64,000 nucleotides of DNA. Source: Candidatus Reidiella endopervernicosa (GTDB taxonomy: Bacteria; Pseudomonadota; Gammaproteobacteria; GCF-013343005). Shown here in pieces: positions 5,161 to 52,205 of the stretch. A program made the translations under genes and the position numbers. The stretch is from the NCBI RefSeq assembly GCF_013343005.1, contig NZ_CP054491.1:62001-126000 (forward strand), written 5' to 3'. Position 1 is the stretch's first letter; each line of letters starts with the position of its first letter. The notes beneath the pieces were generated by a model. It had not been told where the DNA came from and ran no database searches. It saw only the letters and a program-made list of their open reading frames with translations.

Positions 5161-5766
5161 CGCAATCACGACCCTTCCGCCCGACCTGAGATCAATCACG
5201 ACTGGGTCACACGGCCAAGGTGCTGCGACCTGCTTTGGAGACGGCACTTCTCAGCGATCTGCGCAACGCCACCAGGAGCGGTTATGGGCTTGAGATCGAT
5301 GAGAAGAACATCGCCACCTGTATTCGCGCCGGCGTCAATGTCATCCACACCGATCTCGATGCAGGGCTGGCCGATTTTGAGGCCGACACCTTCGACTACG
5401 TGATCATGACGCAGACCCTACAGGCAATGCACTTCCCTGAGCGGCTGCTCGATGAGATGCTGCGTGTCGGTCGTCAGGGTATCGTCACCTTCCCCAACTT
5501 CGGCCACTGGCGAACGTATCATCCGACTGGGCGGTCATATGCCGGTCACCCGCACCCTGCCCAGCGAGTGGTACGACACACCCAACATACATCTCTGCAC
5601 CAATGCCGATTTCGAACGTCTTTGTGAGCAGAAGGGGATCGAAATCCTCGAACGTAGCGTGGTCAACCGCAAACACAATAAAACCCTGCTCGCTCACTCC
5701 CAACCTTGGGTAGATCGGCTTCCATTCACCACCCTACATCTCGACCTGCAGGGGTTGACCATTTGA
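5161..5766 (+). pseudogene. metW: Methionine biosynthesis methyltransferase-like MetW, frameshifted
   Basis: MetW is a small class I SAM-methyltransferase-like partner of MetX. Recognisable segments are a scrambled GAKVLDLGCGDG region (about 5205-5240), SGYGLEID-like at 5280, NVIHTDLDAGLADFE, FDYVIMTQTLQAMHFPERLL and FPNFGHWR in one frame up to about 5510. Then GGHMPVTRTLPSEWYDTPNI and ILERSVVN follow in another frame to a TGA at 5764-5766. The start codon and the SAM-binding glycine loop are damaged. It follows metX directly, the usual metXW order, so both genes share the same damaged stretch. Confidence 0.8.
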
Positions 5767-5916
5767 GTAACTGCCTATACTTGACTACAATAAAAACAGA
5801 CCGTGGTATGGAGGCTATCTTGGACCAACCGACAGGCTGCTGAAATGTAAGCTGCTTCTAGCTCGTTGCGTTCGTCACTTTCATCAACTCGCAGCTGGGC
5901 CGAACCGACCTCGACG
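5531..5916 (+). repeat. Tandem duplication, first unit (metW tail plus start of next gene)
   Basis: This unit runs from the metW C-terminus (GCGGTCATAT at 5531), through the intergenic spacer, to a degraded copy of the first ~100 bases of the downstream PhnD-like gene (GTATGGAGGCTATCTTGG at 5806). The same series repeats directly after it. Here the metW part is the better preserved and the phnD-like part is riddled with indels. The unit length is about 386 bases by eye. Confidence 0.75.
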
Positions 5917-6340
5917 GCGGTCATATCGGATCACCCGCACCCTGCGTGATGGGACGACACACCCAACATACATCTCTGCACCATTGCCGATTTCGAACGT
6001 CTTTGTGAGCAGAAGGGGATCGAAACGAACGTACGTCTCAACCTGCAACACACAAACCCTGCTCGCTCGCAGTTGATCGCAACCTTTTGTGATGGCCGTC
6101 CACCGATCAACGCCTCTACATCCAGTCGTGTCTCTAGCACATGACCATTTGGGTTTAAACTGCCCTATACTTTGTCTGACAATAAAAAAAACAACCAGTG
6201 GTATGGAGGCTATCTTGGGACCAACCCGTATAGGCTTAAGGAAGTGGTTAACGCTGCTTCTAGCCCTGCTCTGCGTTTCGCACTTCTCATCAACATACGC
6301 AGCTGAGAGTGCCGAACACGACTCTGAACGACCGATCATA
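5917..6340 (+). repeat. Tandem duplication, second unit
   Basis: The second unit begins with GCGGTCATAT at 5917 and repeats the metW tail, including a long shared stretch around 5961-6030 that matches 5581-5655. It then repeats the spacer and runs into the intact start of the PhnD-like gene at 6203. In this unit the metW part is degraded and the downstream gene intact, the mirror image of the first unit. Apart from this duplication the 436 bases between metW and the next gene hold nothing recognisable. Confidence 0.75.
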
Positions 6341-7084
6341 TTTGGTATTACACCCTTTATGAGCCCCATTGCGTTGATGCAACGATTCACAGCGCTACGC
6401 AACCACCTCAGCCACACCTTGAAACGACAGGTACTGATCGAAACTGCCAGTAGCTTCGATGAGTTCATTAAGCGCACCGCACAACGACGCTACGATCTTG
6501 TCTTTACCTCACCCACCTTCTCTCTGCTCGCAGTTGATAGCGGTTACTACCGCATGGCCGCCACGCCGATCAACGCCGTCTCTGCACAGGTCGTAGTCTC
6601 CTACCCTGCGCCCTATCGAACCATCGAGGATCTGGCTGAACTACGTGTCGCCACACCTCCCGCACAGGGCTTCATCTCACTGGCAGGAAAGGAGCTATTT
6701 ACACAGAACGGTGTAACCGGCAACAAGAGTCCCACATATATTCCCTTCAGGACACATAACGCCGCCTATCAGGCGGTGCTTGGCGGCGAGGCGGACGCAG
6801 CAATCATCTCCAACTACGTACTCAAAAAAGTCCACCACAGTGGCATTCCGCTCAGAGTGATTGAATTTAGTCGACAATTTCCTGGAATGGGTGTGCTCGT
6901 CGCCAACAGCAACGATGACAGGACCAATCGGCTCTTCGTCGAGACCATGATCTCACTGCAACGCTCACAGAATGGTCAACAGATCCTACAGAAGATTGCC
7001 TTCCCAGGATTTCGTACGGCCTCGATCGAGGAGTTTGAACCCGCTCGCGCATTCATGCCCAATCTCAAGAAGGGACTGCATTGA
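6203..7084 (+). CDS. PhnD-like periplasmic substrate-binding protein
   Basis: A secreted binding protein of the phosphate/phosphite/phosphonate (PhnD/PtxB) type, about 293 residues. From ATG 6203 it has a basic N-terminus and a hydrophobic stretch WLTLLLALLCVS ending near AYAAES-like cleavage residues (~33). After that come FGITPFMSP, RYDLVFTSPTFS and the GEADAAIISNYVL segment, all typical of this fold. The ligand is not predictable. The open frame reaches back to 6089, but that region is duplicated spacer, so 6203 is chosen. No ABC transporter genes follow; instead its stop overlaps a membrane c-di-GMP protein, so it probably acts as that receptor's ligand-sensing partner. Confidence 0.85.
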   Translation: MEAILGPTRIGLRKWLTLLLALLCVSHFSSTYAAESAEHDSERPIIFGITPFMSPIALMQRFTALRNHLSHTLKRQVLIETASSFDEFIKRTAQRRYDLVFTSPTFSLLAVDSGYYRMAATPINAVSAQVVVSYPAPYRTIEDLAELRVATPPAQGFISLAGKELFTQNGVTGNKSPTYIPFRTHNAAYQAVLGGEADAAIISNYVLKKVHHSGIPLRVIEFSRQFPGMGVLVANSNDDRTNRLFVETMISLQRSQNGQQILQKIAFPGFRTASIEEFEPARAFMPNLKKGLH

Positions 7085-8346
7085 TGCAACTACGCTTTGC
7101 GTCCCGCATCATCCTTAGCGTAGTCATCATCGAGGCGCTGATGCTCTCTCTACTGGTCTGGAACAGCGTACGACTGATCAACACCAGTCACGCCGAACTC
7201 ATGGAACAGTCACTCAATGAGAAGGCCGAACTGCTCGCCAACTCTCTGGCTCCAGGGCTGATCACACTCGACCGTGCGCTGCTCATCGATGCGCTCGCAC
7301 CACTGAAGAAAAATCCGACCCTGCTCTACGCCACCGTCTACGGTCTCGACAACCGGGTACTGGCGCACATCGGCACCAAGATAGAGAAACGCTCCGACCT
7401 TTCACATAGCCACCACGACCTGAGTTTCATTGAAGCCACCGAAGATGGTGTTTTCGACCTCTCCCACCCGGTCGTCGTTTCGGGTCAACCGCTCGGCAGC
7501 CTGCACATCGGCTACTCAACCAAACTGGTCGTGGCCCTGACCAAACAGACTCGCTTCCAAAACACCGCTATTGCTGCTGCCGCGCTACTCTTCTCAATCA
7601 TGGTGACGGTAGCCATCGGCCTCTTTCTGACCCGTAGCCTGCGCCAACTAAAACAGGGATCCGAAGCACTACAACGCGGTGACCTGGATCATCGTATCGA
7701 GATCAATCGTAGCGATGAGATTGGCGATGTTGCCAACTCCTTTAACCAGCTCGCCAACCACCTCGATGCCACACAGAAAGAGTTGGAGCTGGAACACACC
7801 AAGCTGCTGCGTCAAACCGCACATCTCAACAACCTGCTCAATGGTGTTAATGCCGTTATCTGGGAGGCAGAGCCGGAATCGGGCTGCTTCACCTACGTCA
7901 GCAACGAGGCGAAGAACCTTCTCGGACTACCGATAGAGCGCTGGTACCACCCCGACTTTTTCCACAAGCATGCCCACCCCGATGACCTGCAGTGTGTGAT
8001 CGAATCAGTTACGGACAACAGCAGCGCCACTGGCCGCTTTAGCATCGACTTCCGCCTCTACGATGAGAGTGGCCACACCATCTGGGCACGCATGATCAGC
8101 ACCAGTGAATATAACGATCAGAACGAACTGGTACTGCGTGGATTATTACTCGACATCTCCGAGCAGAAGGCCTCCCGGGGAGTCGCTATTTTTGCGAAAG
8201 TTTGTTTTGGGCATCCAAGCCCAAGCAAGCGGCAAATACTTAACGCGACCGTTTATGCCTACGGCTCCCCGACCGTCCTGCGTTCGTTGCGTAATCACCT
8301 CTTCGCGGCTCTACACAACTCCCTCAGTGACTCTACGCCGACATAA
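7084..8346 (+). CDS. Membrane HAMP-PAS sensor, N-terminal part of a GGDEF-EAL protein cut by a repeat
   Basis: This is the 5' part of one long gene whose catalytic half lies at 8460-9800. It has a transmembrane helix (~residues 6-28), a periplasmic domain of ~130 residues, a second helix (~160-182), a HAMP domain (RSLRQLKQGSEALQRGDLDH) and a PAS/PAC domain ending at LLLDISEQKAS. From 8176 the frame enters the 284 bp repeat and ends at a stop at 8344-8346, adding about 56 residues that are not native. The ATG at 7084 overlaps the stop of the PhnD-like gene (TGATG); a TTG at 7081 is also possible. The true protein would continue EERIVYLAEHDSLTGL after the repeat. Confidence 0.85.
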   Translation: MQLRFASRIILSVVIIEALMLSLLVWNSVRLINTSHAELMEQSLNEKAELLANSLAPGLITLDRALLIDALAPLKKNPTLLYATVYGLDNRVLAHIGTKIEKRSDLSHSHHDLSFIEATEDGVFDLSHPVVVSGQPLGSLHIGYSTKLVVALTKQTRFQNTAIAAAALLFSIMVTVAIGLFLTRSLRQLKQGSEALQRGDLDHRIEINRSDEIGDVANSFNQLANHLDATQKELELEHTKLLRQTAHLNNLLNGVNAVIWEAEPESGCFTYVSNEAKNLLGLPIERWYHPDFFHKHAHPDDLQCVIESVTDNSSATGRFSIDFRLYDESGHTIWARMISTSEYNDQNELVLRGLLLDISEQKASRGVAIFAKVCFGHPSPSKRQILNATVYAYGSPTVLRSLRNHLFAALHNSLSDSTPT

Positions 8347-8459
8347 AGCCGCTGCTGCATCTTCTCCGTCGTTCGCTCACGCTCTCAACTACGAATAGGC
8401 AGACGACGTCGACTATCGCGGACTAACCGCCTTCGCTTCGCTATCCATGGCGGTCAGCG
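8176..8459 (+). repeat. 284 bp interspersed repeat, copy 1 (inside a c-di-GMP gene)
   Basis: The sequence runs from CGGGGAGTCGC to GGCGGTCAGCG. Near-identical copies lie at 30008-30291 (same orientation, also 284 bp) and 51303-51581 (opposite orientation). It sits between the PAS and GGDEF domains. Taking out exactly these 284 bases joins the codons for EQKAS to EERIVYLAEHD in frame. No terminal inverted repeats, transposase or clear target duplication are seen. Short inverted repeats inside it include GGGC/GCCC near the left end, GCGGCT/AGCCGC in the middle and ACCGCC/GGCGGT at the right end. Short open frames within it are shared by all copies and are probably not genes. Confidence 0.92.
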
Positions 8460-9800
8460 GAGGAACGCATCGTCTATCTTGCCGAACACGACTCACTCAC
8501 CGGCCTGATCAATCGTCGCCGTTTCCAGACTATTCTTGACCAGCATATCGCCTACGCCGAGCGCTACGCGCACAGCGGCGGCCTGCTCTTCATCGATCTC
8601 GATCAGTTCAAATATATCAATGACACCTACGGCCACCACTCCGGTGACGAGTACCTGACTCAGGTCGCTAAACGCCTGCAGCGCACTCTTCGCAATACCG
8701 ATGTGCTCGGTCGTCTTGGTGGTGATGAGTTCGGCGTTATCCTGCCACGCGTTGAAGAGGGCGAGGCGGAGCAGGTAGCAACCAACCTGCTCGAGGCACT
8801 CACCGGCGAGGAGCTGATTCACGGCGAACACGCCTCACGCGTCAGTGCCAGCATCGGTATCGCACTGTTCCCAGAGCAGGGCACCCTACCCAGTGAACTA
8901 TTGGCCCGTGCCGATACCGCCATGTACGCCGCCAAGGAGCTCGGCCGCAATCGCTACCATATCTACTGCGAACAGGATGTTCGGCTGGCTCGTATGCACG
9001 ACAAGGTACGCTGGGAGGATCGTATTCACCAGGCGCTGGAGAATGATCGTTTTGTGCTTCACTACCAGCCAATTGTCAATCTGAAGAGCGGTGCGATCAG
9101 CCACTACGAAGCGCTTCTACGCATGCTCGATGACGACGACACACTCATACCGCCCGGCGCCTTCCTCGACACCGCAGAACGTTTTGGTCTGATACGCGAT
9201 ATCGACCGTTGGGTAGTAGAGCAGACCATTCGCACCCAGGGTGTGAGTGAGAAGCGTGGCGAACCGGTTAAACTGGCGATTAACCTCTCGGGTCGCAACT
9301 TCGGTGATAACGACTTCCTGGAGCTGGTGCGCAACACCATCACCATCTCAAACGCCGATCCGCACGCCATCATCTTTGAGGTCACAGAGACGGTGGCGGT
9401 TGAGAATCTCGATAAGGCGCGCAGCTTCATTAACGACCTGCGCGAGCTCGGCTGTAGCTTTGCTCTGGATGATTTCGGTGTTGGCTTCGCCTCGTTCCAC
9501 TACCTGAAAAATCTCAATGTCGACTACATCAAGATCGACGGCAGCTTTGTGCGCAACTTACATCAGGACAGCACCGATCAGGTCTTTATCCGAGCCATCC
9601 ACGATGTTGCTCGCAGTCTCAACATGACAGCGATCGCTGAGTTCATTGAAAACGATGAGATCCTCGCGATACTTCAGGAGATCGGGATCGATATGGGACA
9701 GGGCTACTACCTCAGCCGACCACAGGCCGATTTTTTGCCGGTGCAAACCATTAAGGGGATCAGCGGCAAAGCCACCCTCAGTCAGGAGGTTGCAGGCTAA
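8460..9800 (+). CDS. Diguanylate cyclase/phosphodiesterase (GGDEF-EAL), catalytic part of the split gene
   Basis: The 3' part of the gene starting at 7084, in a frame shifted by the 284 bp repeat. It opens with EERIVYLAEHDSLTGLINRR, a normal GGDEF entry. The active site is an intact RLGGDEF, with an RNTD inhibitory site five residues before it. An EAL domain follows with YEALLR, NLSGRNF, DDFGVGFAS and KIDGSFVRN, so both cyclase and phosphodiesterase signatures look intact. As the DNA stands, translation would need an internal start such as ATG 8703, which lies at the GGDEF motif and would lose most of that domain. The last bases overlap a convergent gene. Confidence 0.85.
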   Translation, partial: EERIVYLAEHDSLTGLINRRRFQTILDQHIAYAERYAHSGGLLFIDLDQFKYINDTYGHHSGDEYLTQVAKRLQRTLRNTDVLGRLGGDEFGVILPRVEEGEAEQVATNLLEALTGEELIHGEHASRVSASIGIALFPEQGTLPSELLARADTAMYAAKELGRNRYHIYCEQDVRLARMHDKVRWEDRIHQALENDRFVLHYQPIVNLKSGAISHYEALLRMLDDDDTLIPPGAFLDTAERFGLIRDIDRWVVEQTIRTQGVSEKRGEPVKLAINLSGRNFGDNDFLELVRNTITISNADPHAIIFEVTETVAVENLDKARSFINDLRELGCSFALDDFGVGFASFHYLKNLNVDYIKIDGSFVRNLHQDSTDQVFIRAIHDVARSLNMTAIAEFIENDEILAILQEIGIDMGQGYYLSRPQADFLPVQTIKGISGKATLSQEVAG

Positions 9801-29116: not shown

Positions 29117-30130
29117 TCAAAGCGCGTATATATCTGAGATGCTGGTACCAGCCAGACGATCAAAATAGCGCGCACGGTAATAGTGGCGCTTATGATCCGC
29201 ATCGTCACTGAACGCTGCGCGGTCATGCAGTACATTATTACTCACAAGCCCCATCCCTGACTCCAAACGACCTCGGTAGATATAGGGTGAGTCACTATTC
29301 AGCAGCTCTTCGAGAAAGGCCAACGCCTCACGACTAACCTCGTCATCTGCCCACATGACATTATTGACACGGATTGTGTAGCGCATATGCAGATCACCCG
29401 ATGGCATGATACTAAATACCGGCCCCGGCTCTTCTTGACGCGCCACAGTACCACCTTCATCGATTCGGGCCGGAATGGTCATCGCATTTGCCCCCATCAA
29501 GGCTCGGATATATTCAGGGTTCTTTTCACGCAGCAGAATATAGGCGATCTCATGATCCATTAGCGCGTTCTCACCGCCACTCGCAGCCTGTTGGGTAACG
29601 TGAAGGTTCAGCGCATGAATCTGTTTTGATGCCTGATTGTAATAACCATCGGTATGCCAGTTAATCGCACGATTACTGAAGGGGATGTAATCCTGTCGAA
29701 CACCATCACCTCGAACCGTCAGCGAGGTAAGGCCAGACTCGTCAGCAAGCCAGTTTTTATTCAGATACTGCAACCCGAAACGACGCGCCATGGTCAACGG
29801 AATTTCAGGATCGGTATCGGTACCCGTGTTACTGACATAGAGCGCCATATTCGCTTTTTGGCAGCGAGAGAGCAGCGCCGCATGTTCACTCTCAGTGAGC
29901 TTGCGTGGATCATTGATTTCAACCAACAGATCACCCAACCCCTTGGGATAGCCCTCTAGCTTCTGATCACGCCAGCGTTGGTAGAGATCATCATTATCGA
30001 GACTAATCGGGGAGTCGCTATTTTTGCGGAAGCATGTTTTGGGCATCCAAGCCCAAGCAAGCGGCAAATACTTAACGCGACCGTTTATGCCTACGGCGCC
30101 CCGACCGTCCTGCGTACGTTGCGTAATCAC
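29117..30130 (-). CDS. TauD/TfdA-family Fe(II)/2-oxoglutarate dioxygenase, 5' end displaced by a repeat
   Basis: About 297 native residues of a TauD-like dioxygenase. The iron-binding HxD lies in NWHTDGYYN and the distal His is probably in LHDRAAF; the substrate is unknown. The native sequence begins at ISLDNDDLYQRW (base 30007 downward). Everything upstream of that in this frame (~40 residues, including PKTCFRKNSD) is translated from the antisense of the 284 bp repeat and is not native. The original start is probably the small piece at 30292-30334. Whether any protein is made now is unclear. It has its own terminator at 29060. Confidence 0.8.
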   Translation of the reverse strand: MITQRTQDGRGAVGINGRVKYLPLAWAWMPKTCFRKNSDSPISLDNDDLYQRWRDQKLEGYPKGLGDLLVEINDPRKLTESEHAALLSRCQKANMALYVSNTGTDTDPEIPLTMARRFGLQYLNKNWLADESGLTSLTVRGDGVRQDYIPFSNRAINWHTDGYYNQASKQIHALNLHVTQQAASGGENALMDHEIAYILLREKNPEYIRALMGANAMTIPARIDEGGTVARQEEPGPVFSIMPSGDLHMRYTIRVNNVMWADDEVSREALAFLEELLNSDSPYIYRGRLESGMGLVSNNVLHDRAAFSDDADHKRHYYRARYFDRLAGTSISDIYAL

Positions 30131-30291
30131 CTCTTCGCGGCTCTACACAACTCCCTCAGTGACTCTACGCCGACATAAAGCCGCTGCTGCATCTTCTTCG
30201 TCGTTCGCTCGCGCTCTCAACTACGAATAGGCAGACGGCGTCGACTATCGGGGACTAACCGCCTTCGCTTCGCTATCCATGGCGGTCAGCG
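30008..30291 (+). repeat. 284 bp interspersed repeat, copy 2 (inside a dioxygenase gene)
   Basis: The same length and orientation as copy 1 at 8176-8459, with only scattered base differences: CGGGGAGTCGC at the left end and GGCGGTCAGCG at the right. It separates the first ~14 codons of a minus-strand TauD-like gene from the rest. Excision of 282 rather than 284 bases (leaving CG) rejoins the gene in frame, so either a two-base CG was duplicated or a small error is present. Confidence 0.92.
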
Positions 30292-51302: not shown

Positions 51303-51581
51303 CGCTGACCGCCATGGATAGCGAAGCGAAGGCGGTTAGTCCGCGATAGTCGACGCCGTCTGCATATTCGTAGTTGAGAGCGCGAGCGGACGACGACGAA
51401 GATGCAGCAGCGGCTTTATGTCGGCGTAGAGTCACTGAGGGAGTTGTGTAGAGCCGCGAAGAGGTGATTACGCAACGAACGCAGGACGTCGGGCGCCGTA
51501 GGCATAAATGGTCGCGTTAAGTTTTGCTGTTTGCTTGGGCTTGGATGCCCAAAACAAACTTTCGCAAAATAGCGACTCCCG
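51303..51581 (-). repeat. 279 bp interspersed repeat, copy 3 (after napC)
   Basis: The reverse complement of the repeat at 8176 and 30008, with the same ends (CGGGAGTCGC on the minus strand at 51581, GGTCAGCG at 51303) and five fewer bases, spread over small internal gaps. It fills almost all the space between the napC stop and the terminator hairpin at 51276-51302. The internal short open frames (for example SVTLRRHKAAAASS) recur in the other copies. Confidence 0.9.
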
Positions 51582-51605: not shown

Positions 51606-52205
51606 CTACTCCTCTTCACTCTCCTCAACGGCGAGCATCGGATGCTTGGCCACCGCCTCTTCCCAACCAGCAGGCAGACTGTGCGCGACACCCTTGTGGC
51701 AGTCGATACAGGTCTTGCTCGGCTCCAGGCCATCCTGCACCTCCCAGACATGCGGGTCATGGCGTTCGGCACTACGCTCCTCCTGCTTCTCGAGATTCAT
51801 CGAACCGAAGTTGTGGCAGTTACGACACTCGCGTGAATCGGTCTTCTTCATCCGCTCCCACTCGCTGACCGCCATGGTGAGTCGATACTCCTCAAACTTC
51901 TCCGGAGTATCGATGGTGCCCATCATCTTGTGCCAGAGCTCGTTAGACGCCTTGATCTTACGCACGATCTTATGCGTCCACTCCTTCGGCACGTGACAGT
52001 CGGGGCAGGTGGCCCGCACGCCGGTCCGGTTCGACCAGTGCACCGTCTCCTGCAGCTCCTGATAGACGTTCGCCTCCATCTCATGACAGGAGATACAGAA
52101 CTCCTCGGTATTGGTCAGTTCCAGCGACCAGTTAAATCCACCCCAACCGATGACACCGAGGATGATGCCGACAACCAGCGTGGCAAATGTTGATTTAGCA
52201 AGCAT
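51606..52205 (-). CDS. napC: NapC/NirT-type tetrahaem quinol dehydrogenase
   Basis: A 199-residue membrane-anchored c-type cytochrome. One N-terminal helix (FATLVVGIILGVIGWGGF) is followed by four CxxCH haem sites: CISCH, CPDCH, CRNCH, and CIDCH. NapC oxidises quinol and passes electrons to NapB/NapA in the periplasm. It is the last gene of napFDAGHBC; its stop is followed 24 bases later by repeat copy 3, beyond which the operon terminator lies. A conserved EMEANVYQEL and HW segment around the first haem fit the NapC branch. Confidence 0.95.
   Translation of the reverse strand: MLAKSTFATLVVGIILGVIGWGGFNWSLELTNTEEFCISCHEMEANVYQELQETVHWSNRTGVRATCPDCHVPKEWTHKIVRKIKASNELWHKMMGTIDTPEKFEEYRLTMAVSEWERMKKTDSRECRNCHNFGSMNLEKQEERSAERHDPHVWEVQDGLEPSKTCIDCHKGVAHSLPAGWEEAVAKHPMLAVEESEEE

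Follow-up and report, generated by a model that had tools for sequence, protein, structure and literature searches.

The window analysed here, a 64,000-nucleotide stretch of Candidatus Reidiella endopervernicosa (NZ_CP054491.1, positions 62,001 to 126,000), contains a HAMP-PAS-GGDEF-EAL gene that is interrupted by 284 bp (8176-8459), and the locus raises the question of whether this insert leaves the RNA or whether a mobile element has broken the gene. On the plus strand, the left ORF (7084-8175; periplasmic sensor region, HAMP and PAS, from the ORF list and Pfam) stops with ...DISEQKAS at a codon boundary, and base 8460 opens the codon GAG of EERIVYLAEHDSLTGL in the right part of the gene (8460-9800; GGDEF and EAL, from Pfam). 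Deleting 8176-8459 joined DISEQKAS exactly to EERIVYLAEHDSLTGL in a single open frame through HAMP, PAS, GGDEF and EAL, which confirmed the claim of an earlier, sequence-only reading that removal of 284 bp restores a GGDEF-EAL protein. Pfam identified HAMP (1.4e-14) and PAS_3 (7.2e-07) in the left half and GGDEF (7.8e-50) and EAL (1.5e-75) in the right half, and both enzymatic domains were intact, as that reading had also stated. As it stands, the locus comprises a fragment with the sensor region, HAMP and PAS, which reads on into a short tail as far as 8346, and a region for GGDEF and EAL that lacks a normal start.

Our study suggests that the gene is probably broken, not spliced, with its sensor half orphaned and separate from the GGDEF-EAL half, and an interrupted gene is the simplest state of this locus. 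The earlier proposal of a recent insertion into a once-intact gene is supported by the intact halves, the exact join and the exact empty sites found in relatives of another carrier of the element. Single-strand elements are able to excise exactly, so reversion of the gene is possible in principle, and precise excision of the insert at the DNA level would be compatible with the mechanism proposed below. Upstream of the gene, two short imperfect direct repeats were observed (5569-5655 with 5950-6036, and 5782-5823 with 6177-6218, at spacings of 381 and 395 bp) between a methyltransferase-like ORF (5220-5627) and a phosphonate-binding-protein gene (from 6089); this is a partial local duplication.

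A dispersed non-coding element

The insert belongs to a dispersed, non-coding repeat of ~285 bases, whose copies, about 360 in number, make up about 3 % of the 3.45-Mb genome. A 15-base pattern of the 3′ end returned 365 matches in the single contig of 3,446,950 bp (175 on one strand and 190 on the other), and the reversed control pattern returned none across the genome. One exact 15-base match (51863-51877) lies inside a NapC/NirT-type-looking cytochrome c gene, and the copy number is given as about 360 because at least this one of the 365 matches, lying as it does in a coding gene, arose by chance. BLAST sampling of whole copies within selected genome stretches produced 137 hits, 130 of them near full length (266-286 bp); nearly all partial hits ended at a stretch boundary, and mean pairwise identity among copies was 95 %. 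Two further copies occur in the window. The second (30008-30291, plus strand) lies antisense in another host gene, and removing 285 bp reopens a junction ORF of 358 residues, which, judged by eye, possibly encodes a TauD-like dioxygenase. The third (51303-51580, minus strand) has no long ORF across its junction.

The frame offset of 41 intragenic copies was consistent with a 285-bp unit in 27 cases and with 284 bp in 10, including the GGDEF-EAL copy; 4 fitted neither. By the family rule, the unit in the GGDEF-EAL gene is 285 bp (8175-8459, plus strand) and begins one base before the frame-restoring 284 bp, so that loss of this consensus unit would still leave the gene off frame by one. Either a boundary slip of one base or a one-base change in the host gene accounts for this difference. 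Two kinds of compound arrangement were also seen. A 973-bp composite of element, 408 bp and element occurs at two loci, in versions that are 98 % identical (C1:1513317-1514290 and C1:1663648-1664618; L030 and L006), with outer flanks that differ and both composites ending before NNNG; transposition or homologous recombination could have placed it at both. At C1:903177-903740 (L012), two copies lie head to tail with no spacer.

Relatives of the element were found in 43 (12 %) of the 369 genomes sampled from its class, several in high copy, when these were surveyed with a covariance model of the element right end (A2, R1). They also occur on plasmids of Methylobacter, Methylomonas and Methyloprofundus, in IMG/VR contigs and in named gammaproteobacterial metagenome assemblies. 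Our literature searches found no description of the family. At one locus (L265, JAKFXL010000012.1), two right ends, one of a full element and one a remnant, lie beside filamentous-phage-looking genes (Zot-like).

Ends, target site and orientation

Across the 130 near-full-length copies, the element begins with YC[G/C]GGGAGTCGCTA and ends with GGCGGTCAGCG. The left terminus of the sense strand in the GGDEF-EAL copy, CCGGGGAGTCGC (8175-8186, plus strand), is conserved, following a family pattern of seven bases and then GTCGC in the base counts of these copies and in other families. No terminal inverted repeats were found among the 130 copies, the ends YCSGGGAGTCGC and CAGCG being unlike. Outside the element, the sole strong signal was a G at position +4 to the right (125 of 130 copies, p=6e-68) followed by a non-G (128 of 130). 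The GGDEF-EAL copy is an example of this NNNG target, with GAGG directly after the insertion (8460-8463, plus strand), and NNNG likewise follows 43 of the 45 copies examined in other genomes, on plasmids and in viral contigs. A C-NNN motif at both cleavage sites initially seemed universal, but several families lack it at their left end. Carrier G248 has an element of 309 bp (CAAGCG...CAGCG), for which exact empty sites were identified in sister genomes, one chromosomal (L163 compared with L205) and one inside repeated sequence (L161 compared with L206, L207 and L212). Both of these independent sites showed a clean 309-bp insertion with zero duplication and zero deletion.

The orientation of copies followed the local GC skew, whose sign changes near 0.6 and 2.2 Mb. 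The sense strand was on the plus strand in 43 copies against 14 between 0 and 0.6 Mb, where skew is negative, and in 14 against 80 between 0.6 and 1.64 Mb, where it is positive (p=8e-14). Overall, the sense strand was on the C-rich strand in 123 of 151 copies (p=2e-15), and therefore the antisense strand sits in the lagging-strand template. Host-gene orientation does not explain this bias, because the genes that hold a copy are balanced between the strands (28 of 57 lie on the leading strand). G248 showed a matching lean by local skew, in 11 of 14 copies. Read on the antisense strand, the element starts with a hairpin, which the target (not C)-C-N-N-N immediately precedes; IS200/IS605 elements likewise keep their target directly ahead of the start hairpin. 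The orientation of IS200/IS605 elements is also known to recapitulate the direction of replication, by way of the lagging-strand template (PMC5371812).

Insertion without target duplication, hairpin ends and lagging-strand orientation together support a single-strand 'peel-and-paste' reading. We consider it reasonably probable that the insert is a non-autonomous, protein-free mobile DNA element moved via single-stranded DNA at the replication fork, in the manner of IS200/IS605 elements or of PATEs (palindrome-associated transposable elements). The active form would be single-stranded DNA. Recognizing the terminal hairpins by their shape, a trans-acting enzyme would peel off the strand 5′-CGCTG...GCGAC-3′ and insert it on the 3′ side of (not C)-C-N-N-N in the lagging-strand template while this is single-stranded. 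The GGDEF-EAL gene would have been struck by one such event. Against this model, a single frame offset fits no more than about two thirds of the informative intragenic copies, and known IS200/IS605 elements have a fixed target of 4-5 bp, which is much stricter than NNNG.

Two further explanations of the insert can be set against these data. Were it an intron that leaves the mRNA, with the full protein being made, the exact in-frame join and the intact downstream half would be expected, and removal at the RNA level had been entertained in the earlier reading. RNA splicing is argued against because copies lie on either strand of host genes: of the 57 clearly intragenic copies, 34 run in the direction of the reopened ORF and 23 against it. 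Neither the window nor the relatives gave an Rfam intron or ribozyme match, relaxed thresholds producing chance-level matches only, and the near-absence of G-U pairs in the terminal hairpin (below) also counts against removal from RNA. Exact joins are moreover explained by insertion at any site without target duplication, and we regard splicing as extremely improbable. A DDE-type MITE, which would have inverted repeats, duplicate its target and be amplified by a transposase encoded elsewhere, is very unlikely too: its short length, non-coding nature and high copy number would match, but the exact empty sites show no target duplication, terminal inverted repeats are lacking and the replication-strand bias is at odds with it.

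Hairpins and a possible role of RNA

Two hairpins were recognized near the ends of the GGDEF-EAL copy, both on the plus strand. The left subterminal hairpin (8200-8229), GTTTGTTTTGGGC paired with GCCCAAGCAAGC, has arms that vary between families in the alignments while their complementarity is kept. The right terminal hairpin (8426-8454) has the stem ACCGCC/GGCGGT, marked by compensatory changes, and is followed by the end CAGCG. In an alignment of 35 right ends made without regard to structure (A3), 94 % of the cells in the terminal stem were paired and 61 were doubly changed; the covariation score was 0.746, compared to 0.20 for shuffled and at most 0.14 for slid alignments. The covariation was almost purely Watson-Crick, with G-U in only 1 of 198 paired cells, a pattern that fits a hairpin of DNA better than a helix of RNA. 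When 20 whole elements were folded to a consensus, the result was better on the antisense strand (166 G-T against 26 A-C cells) than on the sense strand (25 against 45). This excess is suggestive of RNA on that strand and no more, given that the antisense strand is rich in G and was the one to which the fold had been fitted. Taken singly, the copy in the GGDEF-EAL gene did not fold significantly better than its shuffles, a point against the single-strand reading.

These observations bear on two explanations in which RNA is the acting molecule. A transcribed retroelement, inserted by a reverse transcriptase in trans through reverse splicing or target-primed reverse transcription, with the preference for the lagging-strand template seen in group II introns such as RmInt1, would account for the antisense G-T excess across the 20 families, as expected of RNA. 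Group II introns likewise move without target duplication and with a lagging-strand bias (PMC8914252). However, there was no Rfam match, the flanks have no shared sequence for 5′-exon pairing and the terminal hairpin is nearly pure Watson-Crick, and such a retroelement appears unlikely. Less likely again is a guide-RNA element with an omega-RNA-like scaffold, in which one flank would be the guide and the opposite motif the target-adjacent motif, and an RNA-guided nuclease would aid its keeping or spread. TnpB and IscB elements are laid out in this way, with a fixed motif beside one end and free sequence beside the other, and one relative, carried by a Methylobacter plasmid, has a TnpB gene next to it, but an IscB-type RRXRR domain was detected in only 1 of 18 carriers and the element's own genome has no match to the plasmid TnpB. 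We also give small weight, similar to that of the retroelement, to a new class of protein-free mobile element, in which an antisense, structured, guide-like RNA or ssDNA of ~285-310 nt would be served by a single-strand or RNA-guided enzyme needing only the +4 G.

Known systems and candidate enzymes

Four known systems come closest to the element. PATEs of Haloquadratum derive from IS605-type transposons and are transposase-less elements with near-terminal palindromes, no terminal inverted repeats and no target duplication (PMC3119063). The present element shares the lack of target-site duplication (at two exact empty sites), the lack of terminal inverted repeats and the palindromes near its ends, the terminal hairpin of which covaries; at 266-286 bp it is too short for a transposase, and it outnumbers coding transposons. 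By this analogy, it would work like a PATE. It differs in that no IS605-type parent sharing its ends was found at the sampled loci, its target is NNNG instead of a fixed 4-5 bp, and it occurs in gammaproteobacteria, with about 360 copies in one genome. IS200/IS605 elements such as IS608 and ISDra2 resemble it in target-duplication-free insertion, hairpin ends and replication-following orientation, whereas the present element has no internal tnpA or tnpB and conserves only one G and one non-G in a 5-bp target window. REPINs and REPs, with their RAYTs, are also short, non-coding, high-copy gammaproteobacterial repeats that are possibly HUH-mobilized (PMC3116915), and this genome holds a broken RAYT-like gene, but the element is 285-310 bp with two unlike ends and is not a pair of inverted REPs. 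HEARO and IscB omega-RNA units share with it a motif at one end only and a structured unit of ~300 nt; in contrast to these, nearly all carriers of the element are without an RRXRR protein, and the element has no Rfam match.

No consistent mobilizing enzyme was found in surveys of carriers for IscB, Y1, IS91-type Y2 and one RAYT subfamily, which weighs against the single-strand model. Y1_Tnp matches occurred in 14 of 18 carriers and in 7 of 12 non-carriers, and Y1 transposase genes were absent from carriers G023, G328, G143 and G253. The sole clear Y1 gene of the element's own genome (C1:3163757-3164092; L028, L180) is RAYT-like and frameshifted, with an element copy near its 3′ end. Among specific candidates, IscB was set aside as a general partner given the single RRXRR-bearing carrier, as was the TnpB adjoining the Methylobacter plasmid relative, given its lack of a match in this genome. 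The IS91-type Y2 transposase was absent from G000, G248, G369 and G023, and a RAYT subfamily common to five carriers was absent from G000 and G023 and occurred in many non-carriers (present in 21 of 43 carriers compared to 66 of 326 other genomes). An IS4 transposase beside a G248 copy was rejected as a parent, the element being located inside the transposase gene. At loci where the element has no left end, no adjoining transposase was recognized by eye, and no coding parent with matching ends was found among the sampled loci of this genome and its relatives. At one G248 locus (L203, C1 near 667786), a RAYT-family transposase gene adjoins an integron-integrase-looking tyrosine recombinase.

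The GGDEF-EAL locus carries a caution, in that an exact in-frame interruption does not count as evidence of splicing when the insert leaves no target duplication. The enzyme of the element, once found, could provide a nearly sequence-free tool for scarless DNA insertion. Widespread in the class (12 % of sampled genomes), without a match to any Rfam model, accounting for about 3 % of one genome, scar-free and fork-following, this element family would make a good natural system for the study of replication-coupled transposition.
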